From a virus, in IMG/VR virus record IMGVR_UViG_3300035703_000169, positions 1-42,087 of that record: 42,087 bases of DNA; one strand, written 5' to 3'. Below the pieces are notes generated by a model. It did not search any database, was not told the origin of the DNA, and worked only from the letters and a program-made list of their open reading frames with translations. Within the stretch, counting starts at the first letter, position 1, and each line of letters opens with the position of its first letter. Made by a program: the position numbers and the translations under genes. This document shows, in pieces, positions 3,158 to 41,256 of this stretch.

Positions 3158-4695
3158 TGGGCGTCCGCAGCGCAATCATGGGCTGGCTGCAGCGCGGCAC
3201 CCCGGAGGTGGCCAAGCCTGTGCGGCGCCGGATGTATGAGGGCGCGAAGTTCAGCCGGCTGACGGCCGACTGGGTGACGGGCAACACCAGCGCCGACAGT
3301 GAGGTGTACGGATCAGCGCAAAAGCTGCGCGATCGTGCGCGGCAGCTGTGCCGCGATAACGACTATGCGCGGCAGGCGTTGCGTGCGATCGAGGGCAATG
3401 TCGTTGGGCAGGGCATCCCGTTTCAGGCGCAGGTGCGGATGCTGCGTGGCGGCCGGCTGGATGCTGGCGTCAACGATCAGATCGAGCAGGCATGGAAGCG
3501 GTGGACTAAGGCGAATCATTGCCACACGGGCGGCAAGCTGACGTTCCACGACATCGAGCGACTGGCGGTGCGCGCGTGCGCTGAGTCGGGCGAGGTGTTC
3601 ATCCGGCTGGTGAAACAACCGTTCGGTGGTTCGCAGGTGCCGCTTGCGCTGGAAGTGCTGGAAGCGGACCTGCTCGATGACGGGCTGAACGGCCGGAGCC
3701 AGCAGGGCAATGAGATCCGGATGGGCGTTGAGGTGGACACCTGGGGCCGGCCGGTGGCTTACCACTTCCTGGCGTATCACCCCGGCGACTACCAGTTCAG
3801 TAATCAGCAGATCTCAACGCAGCGCCACAAGCGTGTGCCTGCCGATGAGGTGATCCACCTCTACCGGATGGAACGGCCCGGCATGACGCGCGGCATCACA
3901 TGGTTCGCCAGCGCGATACAGCGACTGCACCATCTGTCCGGCTACGAGCAGGCCGAAATCGTGCGCGCGCGTGCGAGCAGCGCACTGATGGGCTTCATCA
4001 CGTCACCTGAGGGTGAGCTGATGGGCGATGAGGTGATGGAAGGCGAGCGGGTGTCATCGTTTGAGCCTGGTGTGTTCAAGTACCTGGCGCCAGGCGAAAG
4101 CGTGACAGTGCCGCAGCTTGATGCACCTGATGGGCAGTTTGAACCGTTCCTGCGCGCGATGCTGCGCGCGATGGCGGCCGGCATCGGCTGCAGCTACGAA
4201 ACCGTGAGCCGCGACTTCAGCCAGACCAACTACAGCAGCAGCAGGCTGAGCCTGCTTGAGGACCGCGACCACTGGCGCATCCTGCAGAACTGGCTGGTCG
4301 AGAACCTGCACCAGCGGGTGTTCGACGTGTGGCTCGACATGGCGGTGCTGAGCGGTGCGCTGCCGCTGGCCAACTATGAGATCCAAGCTGAGCGCTACAA
4401 GGCTGTGCGGTGGATGCCGCGCGGCTGGGCGTGGGTGGATCCGGCCAAGGAGGTTGATGCCTACGCCATGGCTGTGCGCAACGGCTTCAAGACACTGAGC
4501 GAGGTGGTGGCTGAACAGGGCGGCGACATCGAGGAGCTGATGCGCGCACGCCGCCAGGAGCTGGATGATGCCGAGGCGCTCGACCTGAAGTTCGACACTG
4601 ACCCTGGCTCAGATCCGGCGCCGGTGAGTACCCCGGCTGAGCCGACCGATAATGTGACAGACAACCCGGACAACACCGATGGATCTATCGCGTGA
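3157..4695 (+). CDS. Portal protein (lambda gpB type)
   Basis: 512 aa dodecamer-forming vertex protein through which DNA enters and leaves. Family features are the N-terminal arginine-rich region, the block LRDRARQLCRDNDYARQALRAI, the segment ESGEVFIR, and the late motif SYETVSRDFSQTNYSSSRLS (about 345-364), diagnostic of lambda-type portals. The last 30 residues are acidic and proline-rich (DTDPGSDPAPVSTPAEPTD). The gene overlaps the protease-capsid start by 17 bases, giving tight coupling of portal and capsid synthesis. Confidence 0.93.
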   Translation: MGVRSAIMGWLQRGTPEVAKPVRRRMYEGAKFSRLTADWVTGNTSADSEVYGSAQKLRDRARQLCRDNDYARQALRAIEGNVVGQGIPFQAQVRMLRGGRLDAGVNDQIEQAWKRWTKANHCHTGGKLTFHDIERLAVRACAESGEVFIRLVKQPFGGSQVPLALEVLEADLLDDGLNGRSQQGNEIRMGVEVDTWGRPVAYHFLAYHPGDYQFSNQQISTQRHKRVPADEVIHLYRMERPGMTRGITWFASAIQRLHHLSGYEQAEIVRARASSALMGFITSPEGELMGDEVMEGERVSSFEPGVFKYLAPGESVTVPQLDAPDGQFEPFLRAMLRAMAAGIGCSYETVSRDFSQTNYSSSRLSLLEDRDHWRILQNWLVENLHQRVFDVWLDMAVLSGALPLANYEIQAERYKAVRWMPRGWAWVDPAKEVDAYAMAVRNGFKTLSEVVAEQGGDIEELMRARRQELDDAEALDLKFDTDPGSDPAPVSTPAEPTDNVTDNPDNTDGSIA

Positions 4696-7372: not shown

Positions 7373-7797
7373 CCACACGCCGCGAGACGATCCTGGCCGC
7401 AGTGCGCACAGCACTGACCAACACCACCGGCGTCAGCACCCGGATCTACCGCAGCAGGGTGGAGCCAATGGCACGGGCGGAGAGCCCGGCGATTGTGATC
7501 GAGCCGGTGAACGACACGGCCGAGCAGAACACCAGCCTGCCAATGCTGGACTGGAGCCTGACGGTACGGGTGAGCGTGATCGTGCGCGGCACCATTCCCG
7601 ATCAGCTAGCCGATCCAATCGTTGAAAGCCTGCACAGCAAGCTGATGGCAGATCTGACGCTTGGCGGTGTTGCGATGGACATCAGGCCGCAAAGTGTGAA
7701 CTTTGAACTGGTCGAAGCGGACCAGCCAGCTGGCGTGATCAGCTGCGATTACCTAATCCGCTATCGCACCGCTAACGCTAACCTCGCAACAGCGTGA
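7369..7797 (+). CDS. Tail terminator protein (gpU-like)
   Basis: 142 aa. An N-terminal helix (TRRETILAAVRTALTN) is followed by a strand-rich body with PAIVIEPVNDTAE, LPMLDWSLTVRVSVIVRG and a closing helix (ADPIVESLHSKLMADLTLGG). This is the usual shape of minor tail U/tail completion proteins, which cap the tail tube and join it to the head. It sits directly between the gpFII-like gene and the major tail protein. ATGA overlap with the previous gene; the stop overlaps the start of the following small gene. Confidence 0.7.
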   Translation: MTTRRETILAAVRTALTNTTGVSTRIYRSRVEPMARAESPAIVIEPVNDTAEQNTSLPMLDWSLTVRVSVIVRGTIPDQLADPIVESLHSKLMADLTLGGVAMDIRPQSVNFELVEADQPAGVISCDYLIRYRTANANLATA

Positions 7798-32445: not shown

Positions 32446-32633
32446 TGCTCTCCGGGGTTGATGGTGTTGGCCTGTTCGTATTGCTCCACCTCGGCCAAGG
32501 GGTAGAGCACGAAACCGGGCGTGCGGAAGTATGCAGGCCCTTTGCCGGTCTTGCGCCAGCGCAGCAGCGTGTCACGACTGACACCCCACCGCTCGCATAA
32601 CTGCGTGGCGGTTAAGTAGTCAGAAGATCTCAT
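32442..32633 (-). CDS. Excisionase/MerR-like helix-turn-helix protein
   Basis: 63 aa from ATG 32633 (a second ATG at 32639 is equally possible). DYLTATQLCERWGVSRDTLL, then RWRKTGKGPAYFRTPG and VLYPLAEVEQYEQ is the winged HTH_17 pattern of Xis-like and MerR-like DNA-binding proteins. No integrase was found, so it may act as a regulator rather than an excisionase. ATGA overlap with the SSB-like gene and overlap with the RecT-like stop. Confidence 0.72.
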   Translation of the reverse strand: MRSSDYLTATQLCERWGVSRDTLLRWRKTGKGPAYFRTPGFVLYPLAEVEQYEQANTINPGEQ

Positions 32634-33288
32634 CGTCATCCGTTGCAGCGGCTGCTGTTTCAGGCTGCAGCTTGGCATTTAAATCGGCCACGCTTGTGGT
32701 TGCCGGTGCTGCGCTGACCGTTACCGGCTGCACGTCCAACACCTCCTCTTGGCTCTGCATACCGAGCAGCATGTCACTCGCATACAGACGGCCCCAGAAG
32801 GCCGCGGCGCGGTAGCGAATCATCAGCTCCGGCATGGTCTGCCATTTGCTGCCGCTCTTGGTGGCCCATCCTTCCTTCTTCGCCATCGCCATGGTGACAG
32901 TTGGGCCTTTCAGCTCTTGGCTGCTGGCCAGATCGGTGGCGACCGCATAGCAGGCCAGGCCATCGCCTTCACCGTGCATCTCAAACCGCAACGGGCTGAA
33001 CCGGCCGCAGCCGTTCACCATCGCAATGATGAAGCTGCTGCTCCACGATGGGCGGCCGTGGATGACGTGCAAGTGCTGCATGGCCAGAAACGGGCTGATG
33101 CCCATGCGGCCTGCAATCTCGAGCGCGACGAGGCAGTTGGCAAAGCCCTGCTGCCCTTGGAACTGAGGCGGAATCAGCGTGCTGCTGGCGAGCGCCTTGG
33201 CGATCCGCTGCGCATCCTCGAATGCTTGGATGCCCGAGAAGACTGATCCTCCCGGCTGAGTGGTGGTGAGTGCTGTGGATTCTGTCAT
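32620..33288 (-). CDS. RecT-like single-strand annealing protein
   Basis: 222 aa from ATG 33288. FEDAQRIAKALASSTLIPP, then NCLVALEIAGRMGISPFLAM, VIHGRPSWSSSFIIAMVNGC and PELMIRYRAAAFWGRLY follow the core order of RecT-type proteins. The acidic terminus (TDDDEIF) looks like an SSB tail, as in some phage annealing proteins. With the RecE-like exonuclease next to it, it would anneal single strands during replication or repair. The start overlaps the exonuclease stop (TGATG). Confidence 0.72.
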   Translation of the reverse strand: MTESTALTTTQPGGSVFSGIQAFEDAQRIAKALASSTLIPPQFQGQQGFANCLVALEIAGRMGISPFLAMQHLHVIHGRPSWSSSFIIAMVNGCGRFSPLRFEMHGEGDGLACYAVATDLASSQELKGPTVTMAMAKKEGWATKSGSKWQTMPELMIRYRAAAFWGRLYASDMLLGMQSQEEVLDVQPVTVSAAPATTSVADLNAKLQPETAAAATDDDEIF

Positions 33289-34124
33289 CAGTACATCTCG
33301 ATCTCGGTGAGCTGCTGCTGCGCCCCACTGGCGCCTGTCATCCAACCCGGCAGGCTGATGGTCTCGATCTGATCGCTGTAGCTGGGCCAGCTGTCAGCAG
33401 CACGGCAAACGGCCAGCTTGCCTAGATCCTTCATGGCCTGTTCGTAGCCGCGATCAGTCATCACCTCATCAACGGCATAGACCGCCACGGCATATGGCGC
33501 GATCGATTCCACGCAGATAAAGATGAACTGATCCGGACGCTTGCCGGTGGCCTGCTCAACCCCGTTCAGATACCAAGCTGCCTGCACGTGGTAGCGATAA
33601 TCAGCGATGCTGCGCATGAAGCCGCGTGGGCTGGCGTCTCTGGTGGTCTTGAGATCCACCATGATGCTGCCGTCATCGGTCAGCCAATCCGGCCGGCACT
33701 TGCACTCCACCCCATAGGTGGCATCCGTCCACATATGGGTGGTCTCTGCCTTGCCCGGCAGGCCCAGCAGCATTGCTGCACCGGGATGGCGCATGATGCT
33801 GCGGCCCATGGCCATCACCACCTCGGCATCGTCGGCGGTGATCACGGTCTTGCCAGCAGCAGCAGCCTCGAACGCTGCATAAGACTCCTTGCCGGCCTTG
33901 GTGCGGCGATCCATGGCAGGCGCTACGGCGATCTCTTCATCCCACCTGCTCAGCTCGAGCACGTGCGTGTGCAACGCAGTGCCAAGGCGCATGGCAGCAG
34001 ATGGTTCCGGCGTGATGCGGTTCGGATCCAGATACCGCGACCAGTAGTGCAGCGGTGATCGCGCGATGAGATCCAGATGAGACTTTGAGACGGCCGGATG
34101 CGCGTGATACGCGGTGTTGTCCAT
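33288..34124 (-). CDS. RecE-like exonuclease (PD-(D/E)XK)
   Basis: 278 aa. HAHPAVSKSHLDLIARSPLH at the N-terminus and MRLGTALHTHVLE (about 45-57) are hallmarks of the RecE/exodeoxyribonuclease VIII group. The catalytic core is Glu140 in YGVECKCRPDWL with Asp157 and Lys159 in MVDLKTTRDA, followed by DYRYHVQAAWYLNG. It would resect duplex ends for the RecT-like partner. First gene of the leftward recombination unit; the promoter is in the repeat region just upstream. Confidence 0.85.
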   Translation of the reverse strand: MDNTAYHAHPAVSKSHLDLIARSPLHYWSRYLDPNRITPEPSAAMRLGTALHTHVLELSRWDEEIAVAPAMDRRTKAGKESYAAFEAAAAGKTVITADDAEVVMAMGRSIMRHPGAAMLLGLPGKAETTHMWTDATYGVECKCRPDWLTDDGSIMVDLKTTRDASPRGFMRSIADYRYHVQAAWYLNGVEQATGKRPDQFIFICVESIAPYAVAVYAVDEVMTDRGYEQAMKDLGKLAVCRAADSWPSYSDQIETISLPGWMTGASGAQQQLTEIEMY

Positions 34125-34214
34125 AGTTGCGTGCAGTTGCGGCCAAATACTAGCAGTTGCGGCAGGCTGCGCTACTGTGCCGAGCGCTGGGACACCCAGC
34201 TCATTCCTCCGCCT
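34125..34214. promoter_or_regulatory. Divergent promoter region with direct repeats
   Basis: Ninety bases between the RecE-like gene (leftward) and the helicase-methyltransferase gene (rightward). CAGTTGCGGC occurs at 34134-34143 and 34154-34163, with an imperfect copy at 34125-34134. Between them, on the minus strand, TAGTAT (34147-34152) could be a -10 box 22 bases before the RecE-like ATG. GCTGGG/CCCAGC (34186-34191/34195-34200) forms a hairpin in the rightward leader. The layout suggests operator control of early genes. Confidence 0.5.
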
Positions 34215-36482
34215 ATGACCTACTCAGACTTTCTGGCTTCAAAATCCACAGCCTGCCCACCAGCAGGATTTGATCCGGCATCCTTCACCGCGCCGCTGTT
34301 CCCCTTTCAGCGGGACATCGTGACCATGGCCTGCCGTGTTGGCAGGTTCTGCATCTGGGCCGACTGCGGCATGGGCAAAACCGCCATGCAGCTCGAATGG
34401 GCATCACAGGTCTGCCGGCACACCAAAGGCAACGTGCTGGTGTTGGCACCCCTTGCCGTTGCACATCAAACCGTGCGCGAAGGCAGCAAGTTCGGCATCC
34501 CATGCGCGTTCGCTGCCACGCAAGCTGAGGTCAAGCCCGGCATCACGATCACCAACTACGAGAAGCTGAGCCACTTCGACTCCGGCAGCTTCCAAGGCGT
34601 GGTGCTGGATGAGTCCAGCATCCTCAAGGCATACACCGGCAAGATCCGAAATCAGATCATCGAGTCCTTCGCGCAGACGCCATTCCGTCTGGCCTGTTCA
34701 GCCACACCAGCACCGAACGACCACATGGAGCTCGGCAACCATGCCGAGTTCATCGGCGTGATGACCCGCACCGAGATGCTGGCCATGTTCTTTGTGCATG
34801 ACGGCGGCGATACCGCTAAGTGGCGGCTCAAGGGTCATGCGCAATCCAAGTTCTGGGAGTGGGTCTGCAGCTGGGCGGTCACGATCCGCAAGCCGTCAGA
34901 TCTTGGCTACGACGATGGCAGCTTCATCCTGCCGGCGCTGCAGATCAATGACTGCACAGTTGAGACGCCACGTGATGCCGCAACTGATGACGCTGGCCAG
35001 ATGGCACTATTCGCCATGGAGGCCCGCACGCTGAGCGATCAGCGGCAGGTACGCAAGGCATCGCTCGATCTGCGCGTTGCAGCAGCAGCCACCCTGGCCA
35101 ACAACAGCACCGAGCAGTGGCTGATCTGGTGTGACCTGAATGATGAATCCAAGGCGCTCACTGCTGCCATCCATGGCGCAGTCGAGGTCAGTGGTTCCGA
35201 TTCAGATGATCACAAGCAGCAAGCCGCCATCGACTTCCAAGATGGCAACATCCGCGTGATGGTCAGCAAGCCCAGCATCTTTGGCTTTGGTCTGAACTTT
35301 CAGGGCTGCCACAACGTCGCCTTCGTTGGTCTGTCACACAGCTACGAGGCGTTCTATCAAGCCATCCGCCGCTGCTGGCGCTTCGGCCAACAGCAACCCG
35401 TCAATGCTCACATCATCTACGACGTGGCAGAAGGTCGCGTGATCGACAACATCCGCCGCAAAGAAGCGGACAGCATCGCCATGGCCGAATCAATGGTCAC
35501 CATCATGAAGCAATCCACAATGCAACAACTCAAGAAGATCCAGCGCCAAGTCGCTCCACACATCACTGAGCACAAGACTGGCGACAACTGGGATCTGTAC
35601 ATGGGCGACTGCGTGGAGAGCATCCGCCAGCTGGACTCTGATTCGATCCACTACAGCATTTTCAGCCCGCCGTTCGCGTCGCTCTACACCTACTCCAACA
35701 GCGACCGCGATATGGGCAACAGCCGCACCGAGCAGGAGTTCTTCGATCACTTCGCATTCCTTGCCAGTGAGCTGCACCGCGTGATGATGCCCGGCCGGCT
35801 GATCAGTTTCCATTGCATGAATCTGCCCAGCAGCAAAGAACGCGATGGCTTCATCGGCGTGAAAGACTTCCGCGGTGACATGCTGCGCATCTTCCAGGCT
35901 GCTGGATTCGTGTTCCATAGCGAGGTGTGCATCTGGAAGGATCCCGTCACCGCAATGCAGCGCACCAAAGCAATCGGTTTGCTGCACAAGCAAGTGCGTA
36001 AGGACTCTGCGCTCAGCCGCCAGGGCATCCCTGACTACCTGGTGACCGTGCGCAAGCTGGGCGACAACCCAGAGCCGGTAGCTGGCCCGTTCACTGAGTT
36101 TGCCGGTGAAAACCCGCCAGCCAAAAGCGGCGATCCGATCAAGGACTCGATCAACATCTGGCAGCGCTACGCCAGCCCCGTATGGATGGACATCAATCCA
36201 TCAGACACGCTGCAATACCGCAGCGCACGCGCCAATGAGGATGAACGCCACATCTGCCCGCTGCAACTCGAGGTGATCCGCCGCGGCCTGCAGCTATGGA
36301 GCAACCCTGGCGATCTCGTGCTCAGTCCATTCGCTGGTATCGGCAGCGAAGGCTACGTCAGCCTTGAGATGGATCGCCGTTTCGTTGGCTTTGAACTGAA
36401 GCCCAGCTACTTCAACTGCGCTATCAAGAACCTGACCAATGCACAAGCGGCAAAGCAGGCGGAGCTGCTGCCATGCAACTGA
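34215..36482 (+). CDS. Fusion of SNF2-type helicase and DNA methyltransferase
   Basis: 755 aa from ATG 34215; an earlier frame start at 34098 overlaps the divergent gene and is rejected. Residues 27-440 form a helicase: FPFQRDIV (Q-like), Walker A CGMGKT (51-56), VVLDESS, SATPAPND, and GFGLNFQGCHNVAF, AIRRCWRFGQQQPV as the C-terminal motifs. Residues about 462-755 form a beta-class methyltransferase: SPPF (about 484-487) then FAGIGSEGY near 706, with motif IV before motif I. SPPF suits N4-cytosine or N6-adenine methylation. It could methylate while translocating, protecting phage DNA; that is inference. Confidence 0.85.
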   Translation: MTYSDFLASKSTACPPAGFDPASFTAPLFPFQRDIVTMACRVGRFCIWADCGMGKTAMQLEWASQVCRHTKGNVLVLAPLAVAHQTVREGSKFGIPCAFAATQAEVKPGITITNYEKLSHFDSGSFQGVVLDESSILKAYTGKIRNQIIESFAQTPFRLACSATPAPNDHMELGNHAEFIGVMTRTEMLAMFFVHDGGDTAKWRLKGHAQSKFWEWVCSWAVTIRKPSDLGYDDGSFILPALQINDCTVETPRDAATDDAGQMALFAMEARTLSDQRQVRKASLDLRVAAAATLANNSTEQWLIWCDLNDESKALTAAIHGAVEVSGSDSDDHKQQAAIDFQDGNIRVMVSKPSIFGFGLNFQGCHNVAFVGLSHSYEAFYQAIRRCWRFGQQQPVNAHIIYDVAEGRVIDNIRRKEADSIAMAESMVTIMKQSTMQQLKKIQRQVAPHITEHKTGDNWDLYMGDCVESIRQLDSDSIHYSIFSPPFASLYTYSNSDRDMGNSRTEQEFFDHFAFLASELHRVMMPGRLISFHCMNLPSSKERDGFIGVKDFRGDMLRIFQAAGFVFHSEVCIWKDPVTAMQRTKAIGLLHKQVRKDSALSRQGIPDYLVTVRKLGDNPEPVAGPFTEFAGENPPAKSGDPIKDSINIWQRYASPVWMDINPSDTLQYRSARANEDERHICPLQLEVIRRGLQLWSNPGDLVLSPFAGIGSEGYVSLEMDRRFVGFELKPSYFNCAIKNLTNAQAAKQAELLPCN

Positions 36483-38177: not shown

Positions 38178-38278
38178 TGCTCAAGCCACAAAAAGGTTGG
38201 CCGGCGGTGCTGGACACACCCCGGCCGCGGCTCACAGCTCTCACCTGCAAGCATGACAACACTACAGAAAAGCATTGA
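38177..38278 (+). CDS. Possible 33-aa leader peptide
   Basis: Begins at an ATG overlapping the VRR-NUC stop (TAATG): MLKPQKGWPAVLDTPRPRLT then ALTCKHDNTTEKH. It ends inside the primase-helicase gene, overlapping by 26 bases, and could couple its translation. Evidence is limited to the overlaps; it may not be a gene. Confidence 0.3.
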   Translation: MLKPQKGWPAVLDTPRPRLTALTCKHDNTTEKH

Positions 38279-40376
38279 TTTCGACGCGGCACGTCAGTTC
38301 TTCCAGGTCTTGCAAAAGCCCAAGAACGCCATCAGACTTCGCGCTTTCTATCCGTCAGGTCACCCTTTCAAGGCTGGTGATTCTGGCCGCAAGGCTGATC
38401 CATCACGATCGACCGTAGAAGACTGGCAAGCAGAAGGCCGCGGCGTTTATGTCGTCATCAATGACGGAGGCGACAACGATTCAGAAATCACCGCTTGCCG
38501 CGCCTTGTTCTGCGAATGGGATGATCGCCCCAAAGACTGGCAGGTCACCGCATGGCAGGAGCTTGGTCTGCCAGAACCCACCATGCAGGTGGACACCGGC
38601 GGCAAGTCCATTCACTCCTACTGGGTACTCTCACAGCCGATTGCCCCTGATGTGTGGCGCTCTCTGCAAAAGCGCCTCCTTGAACATGCTGACGCAGATC
38701 GCACGCTGAAAAACCCCTCGCGTGTCATGCGGCTGCCTGGCACGTTTCACATCGGCCCTGATGGCACCGTTGGCGAGCAGGTCTGCATCGTTCACCAATC
38801 AGACATCTACTACAGCCCCGAACAGCTAGAGGCTTGCTTGCCCGATGAACCGACACACACCAAGCTCGTACAAGCGCGCCAGTTCACTGATTACAAGCCA
38901 CACACACTCAGCGACATTCAAGACGCGCTGAATTGCATCCCATCCGCCGTGCCAAAGAAAGGCCAATACCCTTTCTTCCGGAATCTCATGTGGGGTCTCA
39001 TCGAGGCCGTTCGAGACGCTGGTGGCTCTGATGATCAGGCGATTGGCATGATGCGCCGCCACAGTCCTGATTTCGCAGAAGCCGAACAGGTCGCCCGCAG
39101 CAGCTACAGCTCGATCACAGCTGGCACCTTCTGGTACGTCGCCCGTGATCACGGCTGGCGGCCCGCTCGCGTTGTTCCCAATGTCACAGCCGACAACCCC
39201 ACTAGGGCCCTTGAGCCATCCGGCCGTCGCCTCACAAAGCTTGAAGCCGATGAGCTGCTGCAACAGCTCAGAGAGGCCAATAACCTTCGCTACAACGTAT
39301 TCACGCAACAGATCGAGCGGAACGGCAAAGTCCTAGAAGGCGCTGAGCACTATTACCTAGAGATCGCTGAAGCTGGCGGGAAAATCTCCAAGGAAGTGGC
39401 TCTCGACTGTTTAGTCAAGATCGCCAAGGCCAACCCATACGACCCCATCAAGAACTACCTCGATCACGTCGCAGCTCACATCCAACCCACCTACATCGAT
39501 CGACTGGCGTCCACGTACCTGCGCCCAGCTGATGCAGAACTGAAAGAGCCCACCCTCTACGACGACATGATCCGCTGCACCCTCATCGGCGCAGTACGGC
39601 GCGTCTATGAGCCAGGCAGCAAGCACGACAACGCCACCGTGCTGATGGGTGAGCAAGGCGCCCGCAAGTCATCGTTCTGGGCAGCTATCGGCGGCGAGTT
39701 CTTCTCCGATGCCCTACGTGACATCAGCTCAAAGGATGACCTGATGGTGCTGCACCGCTCTTGGATCATGGAGTGGGCTGAGCTGGATCACCTCACAAGC
39801 AAAAAGCACGCCGGCCAAGTCAAGGCGTTCCTGAGCCAGTCCACGGACATGTTCCGCGTGCCCTACGGCAAGGCCACTGAAGCCTTCCCACGCCGTTGCA
39901 TCATCGTCGGCTCCACCAATCGTGACAGCGGCTTTTTGGTGGACGAGACCGGCAACCGGCGCTTTTGGGTGATCCCTGTCACCTGCACGCTTGCCAAGCC
40001 CATTGACGTTTCATCCTTACTCAAGGAGCGTGACGCAATCTGGAGCGCTGCTGTAGCCGCCTACCGCAATGGTGAGCCCAGCGTTCTGACCGCTGAGCAA
40101 GAGGCGCAGGTGGCTGAGCAGAACGAGAACTATCTGGTGGAGTCGCCATGGCGCACGCCGATTGAGGCATGGCTTATCGCGCCCCTCAACGCCCGCAAGG
40201 AGATCACCACTGACGTGCTGCTGGCTGAAGCCATTCTCAAGCCGGTGGAGCGGCAGACCCGCTCAGATCAGATGCAGGTGGCAAGCATCCTGCGGGACTT
40301 GGGCTACCAACGCAGACGCCAGCGACTCGCTGGCGTTCTCAAATGGGTCTACTTTCGAGACAGGCAAGTCTCGTGA
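38253..40376 (+). CDS. Primase-helicase (RepB-like primase plus VapE/VirE-type ATPase)
   Basis: 707 aa. Residues about 30-190 hold a primase-like domain: FYPSGHPFKAGDSGRKADPS, GRGVYVVINDGG, LFCEWDDRPKDWQ, VDTGGKSIHSYWVLSQPI and LKNPSRVMRLPGTFH. Residues about 430-640 are a VapE-type ATPase: Walker A-like GEQGARKSS (466-474), EWAELDHLTSKKHAGQVKAF, then VGSTNRDSGFLVDETGNRRF. The Walker loop has Arg where Gly usually precedes Lys. This is probably the replication initiator, next to the repeat-rich segment that follows it. Confidence 0.85.
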   Translation: MTTLQKSIDFDAARQFFQVLQKPKNAIRLRAFYPSGHPFKAGDSGRKADPSRSTVEDWQAEGRGVYVVINDGGDNDSEITACRALFCEWDDRPKDWQVTAWQELGLPEPTMQVDTGGKSIHSYWVLSQPIAPDVWRSLQKRLLEHADADRTLKNPSRVMRLPGTFHIGPDGTVGEQVCIVHQSDIYYSPEQLEACLPDEPTHTKLVQARQFTDYKPHTLSDIQDALNCIPSAVPKKGQYPFFRNLMWGLIEAVRDAGGSDDQAIGMMRRHSPDFAEAEQVARSSYSSITAGTFWYVARDHGWRPARVVPNVTADNPTRALEPSGRRLTKLEADELLQQLREANNLRYNVFTQQIERNGKVLEGAEHYYLEIAEAGGKISKEVALDCLVKIAKANPYDPIKNYLDHVAAHIQPTYIDRLASTYLRPADAELKEPTLYDDMIRCTLIGAVRRVYEPGSKHDNATVLMGEQGARKSSFWAAIGGEFFSDALRDISSKDDLMVLHRSWIMEWAELDHLTSKKHAGQVKAFLSQSTDMFRVPYGKATEAFPRRCIIVGSTNRDSGFLVDETGNRRFWVIPVTCTLAKPIDVSSLLKERDAIWSAAVAAYRNGEPSVLTAEQEAQVAEQNENYLVESPWRTPIEAWLIAPLNARKEITTDVLLAEAILKPVERQTRSDQMQVASILRDLGYQRRRQRLAGVLKWVYFRDRQVS

Positions 40377-40644
40377 GTCTCACCTTGAGACTGGCCTTCT
40401 GTTCCCACCTGCGGCGACTGGGTGGGAACACCGAGAACCCAGCTGTGCACACCGTTGTTCCTATTGTTCCCATGTTCCTACTTAAGTAATGGATGTAATA
40501 GAAAGAGTAGGTAGGGGGGGGGTACAGGGGAAAGGGAAACTCTGTAAGGGAGATGGGAACGGTGGGAACTAGGAACAGGTTCAGTCTCACCTCGGCTCAC
40601 GCCGAAACCAGTACGCTGGGGCCTTCACTCCGCTCTCACCGGAC
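40377..40644. other. Non-coding repeat cluster, candidate replication origin
   Basis: About 270 bases without a credible gene, following the primase-helicase. GTTCCCACC (40401-40409) and GGTGGGAAC (40421-40429) form a perfect 9-base inverted repeat; GGTGGGAAC recurs at 40561-40569. Related GTTCC or GGAAC words lie at 40457, 40466, 40474, 40555 and 40572. An A+T-rich patch (about 40478-40512) and a G run (40514-40522) lie between the left and right groups. This looks like iterons flanking an unwinding element. Confidence 0.5.
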
Positions 40645-41256
40645 GTGCCATCACTTCCCGACGGCGGCCTGCCTGAGCAGGTCATCCCGTGCCTTGAGCC
40701 TCACTTCCACATCCACCGCGAAGTCACAGGGCTGCACCCTTCCGGCAAACGCCTCAGAATCGACGCCATCGCTGTTCCGCGTGACCCCTCGCAATGGGCT
40801 CGCCAAGACATTGCCCTTGGCATTGAGTTCAAGCGATCAACAGCCAAGGGCCGAGGTGACAGCAGCCGCGTCATCCGACAGTGCCTTGACTACACGGTGG
40901 TGGACTGGAAAGGCTTTGGCACTGGCCTTCCGATCTTCTACTGCCCTGGCTTTGAGCAGGTTCGTGCCTGGCGTGATGCCCGTGAATGGACAGCGCACCG
41001 CTTTGTCGATGACGGTTTCCTAGGCGAATGGGTCGCTAACGATCCCCTCACTGACCAGCAGCAATTTCAAGCCGGCATGGGCTATGCCATTAGCGGCATC
41101 CTTGGCCAGCACAACGTTGGCGAATTGATCCACCGGGACCGTGATGGCTGGTCATTCATCAAGCACGGAGGAGGCTTTCACGTGCAATGGTGCGAACGCC
41201 GTGGCGTGTGCGACGCCAAGTTCAATCAGCTGAATCGAAAGATCGGTTCCGGCTAA
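40645..41256 (+). CDS. PD-(D/E)XK-like nuclease, hypothetical
   Basis: 203 aa, GTG start. LRIDAIAVPRDPSQWAR followed by ALGIEFKRSTAKGRG gives the Asp ... Glu-x-Lys spacing of the PD-(D/E)XK fold, then VIRQCLDYTVVDW and LPIFYCPGFEQVRAW. The C-terminal third is unassigned (HRDRDGWSFIKHGGGFHVQW). A nuclease of the restriction/repair type is likely, but the exact family is not recognised. It lies just after the origin candidate. Confidence 0.6.
   Translation: MPSLPDGGLPEQVIPCLEPHFHIHREVTGLHPSGKRLRIDAIAVPRDPSQWARQDIALGIEFKRSTAKGRGDSSRVIRQCLDYTVVDWKGFGTGLPIFYCPGFEQVRAWRDAREWTAHRFVDDGFLGEWVANDPLTDQQQFQAGMGYAISGILGQHNVGELIHRDRDGWSFIKHGGGFHVQWCERRGVCDAKFNQLNRKIGSG

Follow-up and report, generated by a model that had tools for sequence, protein, structure and literature searches.

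What is the function of the short gap that follows the primase-helicase gene of a tailed cyanophage, and could replication of the phage genome start there? To our knowledge, the origins of most environmental phages are not known, and a first-pass annotation of the DNA considered here had proposed that repeats in this gap form an origin bound by the primase-helicase. The whole stretch that was analysed, hereafter the window, is a viral record of 42,087 bases with genes for terminase, portal, capsid, tape measure, and endolysin, and because it has its own set of these genes it is not a satellite (PICI element). No terminal repeat of 15 nt or longer was found in the window. ARAGORN reported a tRNA-Val (CAC) at 7682–7771 on the minus strand, antisense within the structural gene region, which may be spurious.

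The replication genes of the window resemble the module of cyanophage S-2L. Based on Pfam and PHROGs matches and on the S-2L gene order, they include an AEP PrimPol fused to a VapE-like helicase, with an SF2 helicase, a VRR-NUC protein, and an exonuclease as neighbours. One ORF in this area (34098–36482) fuses a superfamily II helicase and an N6/N4 DNA methylase, which are encoded by separate genes in S-LBS1. In addition, a RecT-like annealing protein and an exonuclease VIII-like gene (32620–34124, minus strand) adjoin the replication genes, as in S-2L.

The primase-helicase gene (38253–40376, plus strand) encodes a protein of 707 aa, the proposed initiator, which consists of an AEP PrimPol-like N-terminal domain, a VapE-like/SF3 AAA+ helicase (Pfam VapE-like_dom, E 3e-66), and a C-terminal winged helix. 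Its profile matches that of SaPI PriRep1, a vapE-like initiator (PDB 7pds, E 1.7e-35), which is also the top fold match of the helicase, and a fold match to the S-2L PrimPol (6zp9) has 39% identity. The nearest named relatives by this protein are Synechococcus phage S-LBS1 and cyanophage S-2L. The winged helix was predicted by AlphaFold2 at residues 634–701 (codons at 40152–40355, plus strand), with helices at 634–642, 653–661, and 670–682 and strands at 686–692 and 695–701, and is the proposed iteron-binding domain. The same fold was obtained when the C-terminal domain was predicted alone (pLDDT 90.8), and the isolated domain gave weak Foldseek matches to many winged-helix proteins, none better than E 0.16.

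The gap 3′ of this gene is 268 nt long and contains eight copies of GGAAC/GTTCC, compared with a mean of 1.13 and a maximum of 7 in dinucleotide shuffles of the gap, none of which (0 of 5000) reached eight. Four copies are oriented leftward and four rightward around an A+T-rich patch and a G run. The best 8-mer array score in the gap is 8, compared with a maximum of 5 in 200 shuffles, and the best-scoring 268-nt stretches across the whole window (10-nt steps) all include the array. Counted across the entire window, GGGAAC is not significantly enriched (20 occurrences versus 14.7 expected), and the significance of the array therefore lies in its clustering and geometry.

The first iteron lies 24 nt downstream of the stop of the helicase gene (40376), a placement that recurs in relatives, and belongs to an outer pair composed of TGTTCCCACC on the left (40400–40409; GGTGGGAACA on the minus strand; GTTCC starting at 40401), which is kept in relatives, and its perfect inverted partner GGTGGGAACA on the plus strand (40421–40430; GGAAC at 40425). 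The two arms are 100% complementary over 10 bp and enclose an 11-nt loop; the perfect inverted repeat of the first-pass annotation is thus real, although it is 10 rather than 9 bases long. Further inside, a left set (40456–40480, minus strand) comprises three iterons, GTTCCTA, GTTCCCA, and GTTCCTA, at 40457, 40466, and 40474 with a pitch of 8–9 nt, and a right set (40552–40577, plus strand) comprises GATGGGAAC, GGTGGGAAC, and TAGGAACA, with GGAAC at 40556, 40565, and 40572 and a pitch of 7–9 nt. The two sets are oppositely oriented and both point inward. The exact GGTGGGAAC of the right set is at 40561–40569, and the earlier observation is confirmed overall.

Between the inward-pointing sets lies the A+T-rich patch (40475–40504), which overlaps the last left iteron and is a candidate duplex-unwinding element; its GC content of 27% places it within the lowest 0.014% of the 30-mers of the window. 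It is followed by a run of nine G (40514–40522, plus strand), the longest homopolymer G/C run of the window, and both features agree with the initial description. A box, GGGAAACTCTGTAAGG, is located just left of the right set (40534–40549, plus strand) and aligns with the variants CTCTCTAAGG and CTCCTAAG in relatives.

The array is bounded on its left by AGTCTCACCTTGAGACT (40376–40392), a short palindrome with the motif GTCTCA/TGAGAC, and on its right by AGTCTCACCT (40583–40592, plus strand), an exact 10-nt repeat of the left flank. The repeat AGTCTCAC is hence found on both sides, with only the left one described as palindromic; it is a candidate for either an outer binding site or a recombination boundary. 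Among 188 regions downstream of the helicase gene in relatives, GTCTCA/TGAGAC occurs in 35%, versus 12% of shuffles.

The gap is likely to be non-coding, mainly on the basis of the cross-species conservation of the array. Most coding frames across it are broken by stops, in agreement with the earlier claim that the repeats do not fit coding, but that claim needs modification in that an ORF starting with ATG (40553–41023), which has no Pfam or PHROGs match, overlaps the right set. Neither a sigma-70 promoter nor an intrinsic terminator was found within 40100–40900. A search for an RNA element in the region yielded a sub-threshold chance match outside the array, and this candidate was rejected.

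Relatives were collected by scans of viral contigs and are mostly 60–87% identical. A scan of a genome collection gave two loci only, one of which (L324, BJHE01000012.1) is a helicase relative from a metagenome bin of Cyanobium, which would fit hosts among the picocyanobacteria. By a blind 8-mer array test, a significant array was detected in 147 of 188 non-identical regions downstream of the helicase gene. The test was also positive for 2 of 182 controls taken from within the gene and for 14 of 159 segments located farther beyond it. The other 41 regions were below the threshold of the test, including four (L019, L020, L022, and L023) with a misplaced stop. An apparent helicase ORF reading through the origin in L019–L023 was dismissed as an artefact, since the stop search had begun past a tblastn match that overran the stop.

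In the lineage of the window (L003–L025), the spacing of sites is kept to about 1 base within sets and to a few bases across the central spacer, and one right-set copy is missing in some members. The A+T-rich patch is present between the sets in aligned relatives too, and an aligned G-rich tract is common to the window lineage and the relatives with CA or AAR iteron tails, whereas G runs as such are not enriched across relatives (86% versus 84% of shuffles). A CTC[CT]TAAG-like box was found in 39% of the 188 regions versus 5% of shuffles, and in many relatives it stands next to the right set. Viewed on the coding strand, the homopolymer run consists of C in 84 of 188 regions (such as L076, L078, and L080) and of G in 70, a pattern suggesting that some lineages carry the origin core in the opposite orientation to the gene. 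The homology among relatives ends near 40583–40592, just past the right set, and the downstream sequence differs in at least four ways while the array layout stays with the helicase gene.

These observations bear on two alternative functions of the array. Inverted GGAAC repeats are operator-like and the left flank holds a short palindrome, as might be expected if the gap were a regulatory site through which a phage repressor, or the helicase itself, governs the downstream genes, and not an origin. We consider this very improbable, given that the gap is devoid of a sigma-70-like promoter, that the downstream genes vary among relatives while the array remains with the helicase gene, that the iteron sequence tracks the winged helix of the helicase as described below, and that both the A+T-rich patch and the skew minimum would be left unexplained. 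Alternatively, the array might be a packaging (pac/cos) site or another structural or segregation site in the stretch toward the terminase genes (146–2562), which would start 1.7 kb beyond it if the map is circular. Such a role is barely credible, as relatives with a different next gene still have the array after the helicase gene, named phages with other next genes show the same placement, and the array covaries with the winged helix.

The GC skew is consistent with an origin in or near the gap. The cumulative GC-skew minimum of the window is 1.4 kb from the array, and the minimum falls within 0.8–2.7 kb of it in six of eight long contigs (the window and five of seven relatives, the contigs of the latter being 37–44 kb). 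The annotated genes to the left and to the right of the array in the window share one coding strand, and the sign change of the skew there is therefore not accounted for by a strand switch of the genes. The first-pass annotation had held that a skew switch elsewhere would count against an origin; this does not apply to the window but does to two of the seven relatives (G004 and G009), in which the minimum is 13–15 kb away.

Across relatives the iteron reads (A)GGTNRG followed by a variable tail; the window has the tail AAC, and other tails are AC(G), GAC, GCA, CA, AAR, and ATC. The invariance of GGTNRG is by construction because it served as the search core, and the blind 8-mer test recovers the same repeats without it. 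On a helicase tree built without the C-terminal domain, the tail class switches at least 18 times. When every variable column of the helicase was compared with the tail, residue 696 gave the best match for three tail classes, each taken separately. This residue, which is Leu in the window (codon at 40338–40340, plus strand), opens the second strand of the predicted wing. Loci with Arg here have AC, GAC, or GCA tails, those with Leu have AA, those with Gln mostly CA, and the one with Pro AT. The distinction between Arg and non-Arg at this position sorts 165 of 165 loci, and all eight independent pairs on the same tree are concordant. Most of the next best columns are within residues 634–707. 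In addition, variation at iteron position 4 goes with residue 687 and that at the third tail base (AAC versus AAR) with residue 691, both residues being in the predicted winged helix, and no clear protein partner of iteron position 5 was found among the helicase columns. At the level of sequence, the covariation with residue 696 points to the C-terminal winged helix as the part of the helicase that would read the origin.

The pairing rule was fixed before a hold-out set of 57 loci, 40 with a labelled array, was retrieved. It was correct for Arg in 27 of 27 and for Leu in 5 of 5 cases but for Gln in none of 3, and Arg versus non-Arg was assigned correctly in 39 of 40. The Gln failures form one clade of three with mixed tails, with one copy each reading GGCA. 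Asn and Ala, also found in the hold-out set, are outside the rule, Asn being a new residue class with mixed tails. Among hold-out proteins lacking any training row of more than 90% identity, the labelled Arg (9 of 9) and Leu (5 of 5) cases still followed the rule.

Two caveats apply: residue 696 was selected because it performed best among the columns, and the part of the gene that encodes the C-terminus is physically coupled to the array; this tight linkage weakens the phylogenetic independence of the result. A tree of the C-terminal region contains three to four supported independent pairs, all concordant, and with so few pairs part of the pattern is attributable to module exchange. It might thus be that recombination moves the array together with the 3′ end of the gene and that residue 696 is a mere marker hitch-hiking with this block, a possibility that concerns the single-residue code and not the origin. 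In line with this explanation, the tail changes less often when the C-terminal tree is used in place of the upstream one (13 versus 18). On the other hand, columns 700–707, which are nearer to the array, predict the tail at only 0.70–0.88 versus 1.00 for residue 696, which argues that the latter is more than a marker, and the hold-out proteins without a close training relative fit the rule as well. We therefore regard pure hitch-hiking as unlikely, while leaving it some weight.

A further alternative accepts the origin but holds that the initiator reads a folded stem-loop, as has been proposed for PrimPol-helicases of the pRN1 ORF904 type, so that the repeats would be hairpin arms and not double-stranded sites. 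The perfect 10-bp inverted pair with its 11-nt loop would suit such a structure, and a stem-loop lies 3′ of the gene both in pRN1, where it is essential, and in some AEP-helicase-wHTH phages (PMC4234260). However, most copies here are in tandem at a 7–9 nt pitch without local pairing, the sequence is constrained as well as the pairing and follows the wing residue, and aligned relatives with CA or AAR tails partly or wholly lack the outer pair but keep both triple sets. Stem-loop recognition is accordingly quite improbable.

Taken together, the gap at 40377–40600 is very probably a replication origin of the self-loading SaPI/PICI type, bound by the phage's own PrimPol-helicase. What was computed comprises the array, its geometry, its place after the helicase gene, the tail covariation, the PriRep homology, and the nearby skew minimum; the kept geometry, the association with the wing residue, this homology, and the skew minima in six of eight contigs all support the earlier proposal of an origin bound by the primase-helicase. 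The events at such an origin can be outlined partly by analogy with SaPI. The PrimPol-helicase would bind the iterons via its C-terminal winged helix, and two hexamers would assemble, one on the left set and one on the oppositely oriented right set. They would then melt the A+T-rich, G-run-containing stretch between the sets and thereby be loaded, after which the fused PrimPol domain may prime inside the opened bubble, in the G/C run.

Similar arrays were found beyond the cyanophages. Among twelve other VapE-type phages tested, six (Marinobacter PS3, Staphylococcus 2638A, Enterococcus AE4_2, Corynebacterium Adelaide, Paenibacillus Jacinda, and APSE-7) have significant inverted arrays in the gap after the helicase gene, each with a different 8-mer. 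The remaining VapE phages tested had no significant array, and in neither of the two satellites included did the array score exceed that of shuffles, their background being rich in A+T. A gap of approximately 270–530 nt follows most of the helicase genes examined in these named VapE-type phages and satellites (L310–L323). In APSE-7 (L321), the putative origin given in the record (900–1000) is upstream of the VapE gene, and the AGGTTGTT/AACAACCT array is in the downstream gap (3490–3956). On balance, we favour, with moderate confidence, the view that wing residue 696 sets iteron-tail specificity, with initiator and origin changing together or being swapped as a cassette, and that SaPI/PICI-type origins are common in VapE-like tailed phages and not peculiar to satellites.

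Searching the gap behind each VapE-like helicase gene for inverted iterons would offer a simple rule for predicting origins in many phages. Because nature already provides a series of iteron variants with their matching wing residues, initiator specificity can be tested directly with a small domain, and the pairing bears on which phages and satellites can use each other's replication proteins. Moreover, the findings suggest that tailed phages and PICIs have this origin layout in common, a point relevant to the ancestry of PICIs.

Several known systems share features with the one described here. In SaPI, the C-terminal domain of the Rep protein recognises the origin, which is located directly 3′ of the Rep gene (PMC7581432), and in PICI origins an A+T-rich region is flanked by two sets of iterons (PMC6092414). 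The present system resembles these in its VapE-like AAA+ initiator, homologous to PriRep (7pds) by profile and fold, in the position of the putative origin immediately 3′ of the initiator gene, and in the two iteron sets that flank an A+T-rich region; as a counterpart to the C-terminal recognition reported for SaPI, there is a winged-helix covariation that is strong but confounded by linkage. It differs in being carried by tailed cyanophages rather than satellites, in having an S-2L-like AEP PrimPol as its primase, and in its two-part iteron, of which one half is constant whereas the tail switches from relative to relative. The statement made in 2018 that the PICI origin layout is present in no other known bacterial replicon (PMC6092414) is contradicted by these cyanophages, whose predicted origins have that layout.

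We found no described origin for these cyanophages in the open-access literature, and the searched passages of the S-2L PrimPol paper (PMC8065100) describe no replication origin. S-LBS1 has an array of GCCTAACC iterons after its primase gene, whereas S-2L has no array clearly above chance (score 7, with shuffles up to 7). In SCCmec, the D5/VapE-like helicase of the Cch2/CCPol system was shown by binding assays to bind direct repeats 3′ of its own gene (PMC7581432), but that system has three iterons only, a different polymerase partner, and a mobile resistance cassette as its carrier. pRN1 ORF904 is likewise a single protein with PrimPol, helicase, and winged-helix parts, and its gene is immediately followed by an essential element (PMC4234260); this element, however, is a single stem-loop of about 100 nt with poor sequence conservation, unlike the conserved tandem iterons at a 7–9 nt pitch and the conserved boxes found here. 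The SaPI/PICI-type iteron origin is thus known as a kind, and what is new is a candidate recognition code, open to testing, that would link the initiator to its iterons.
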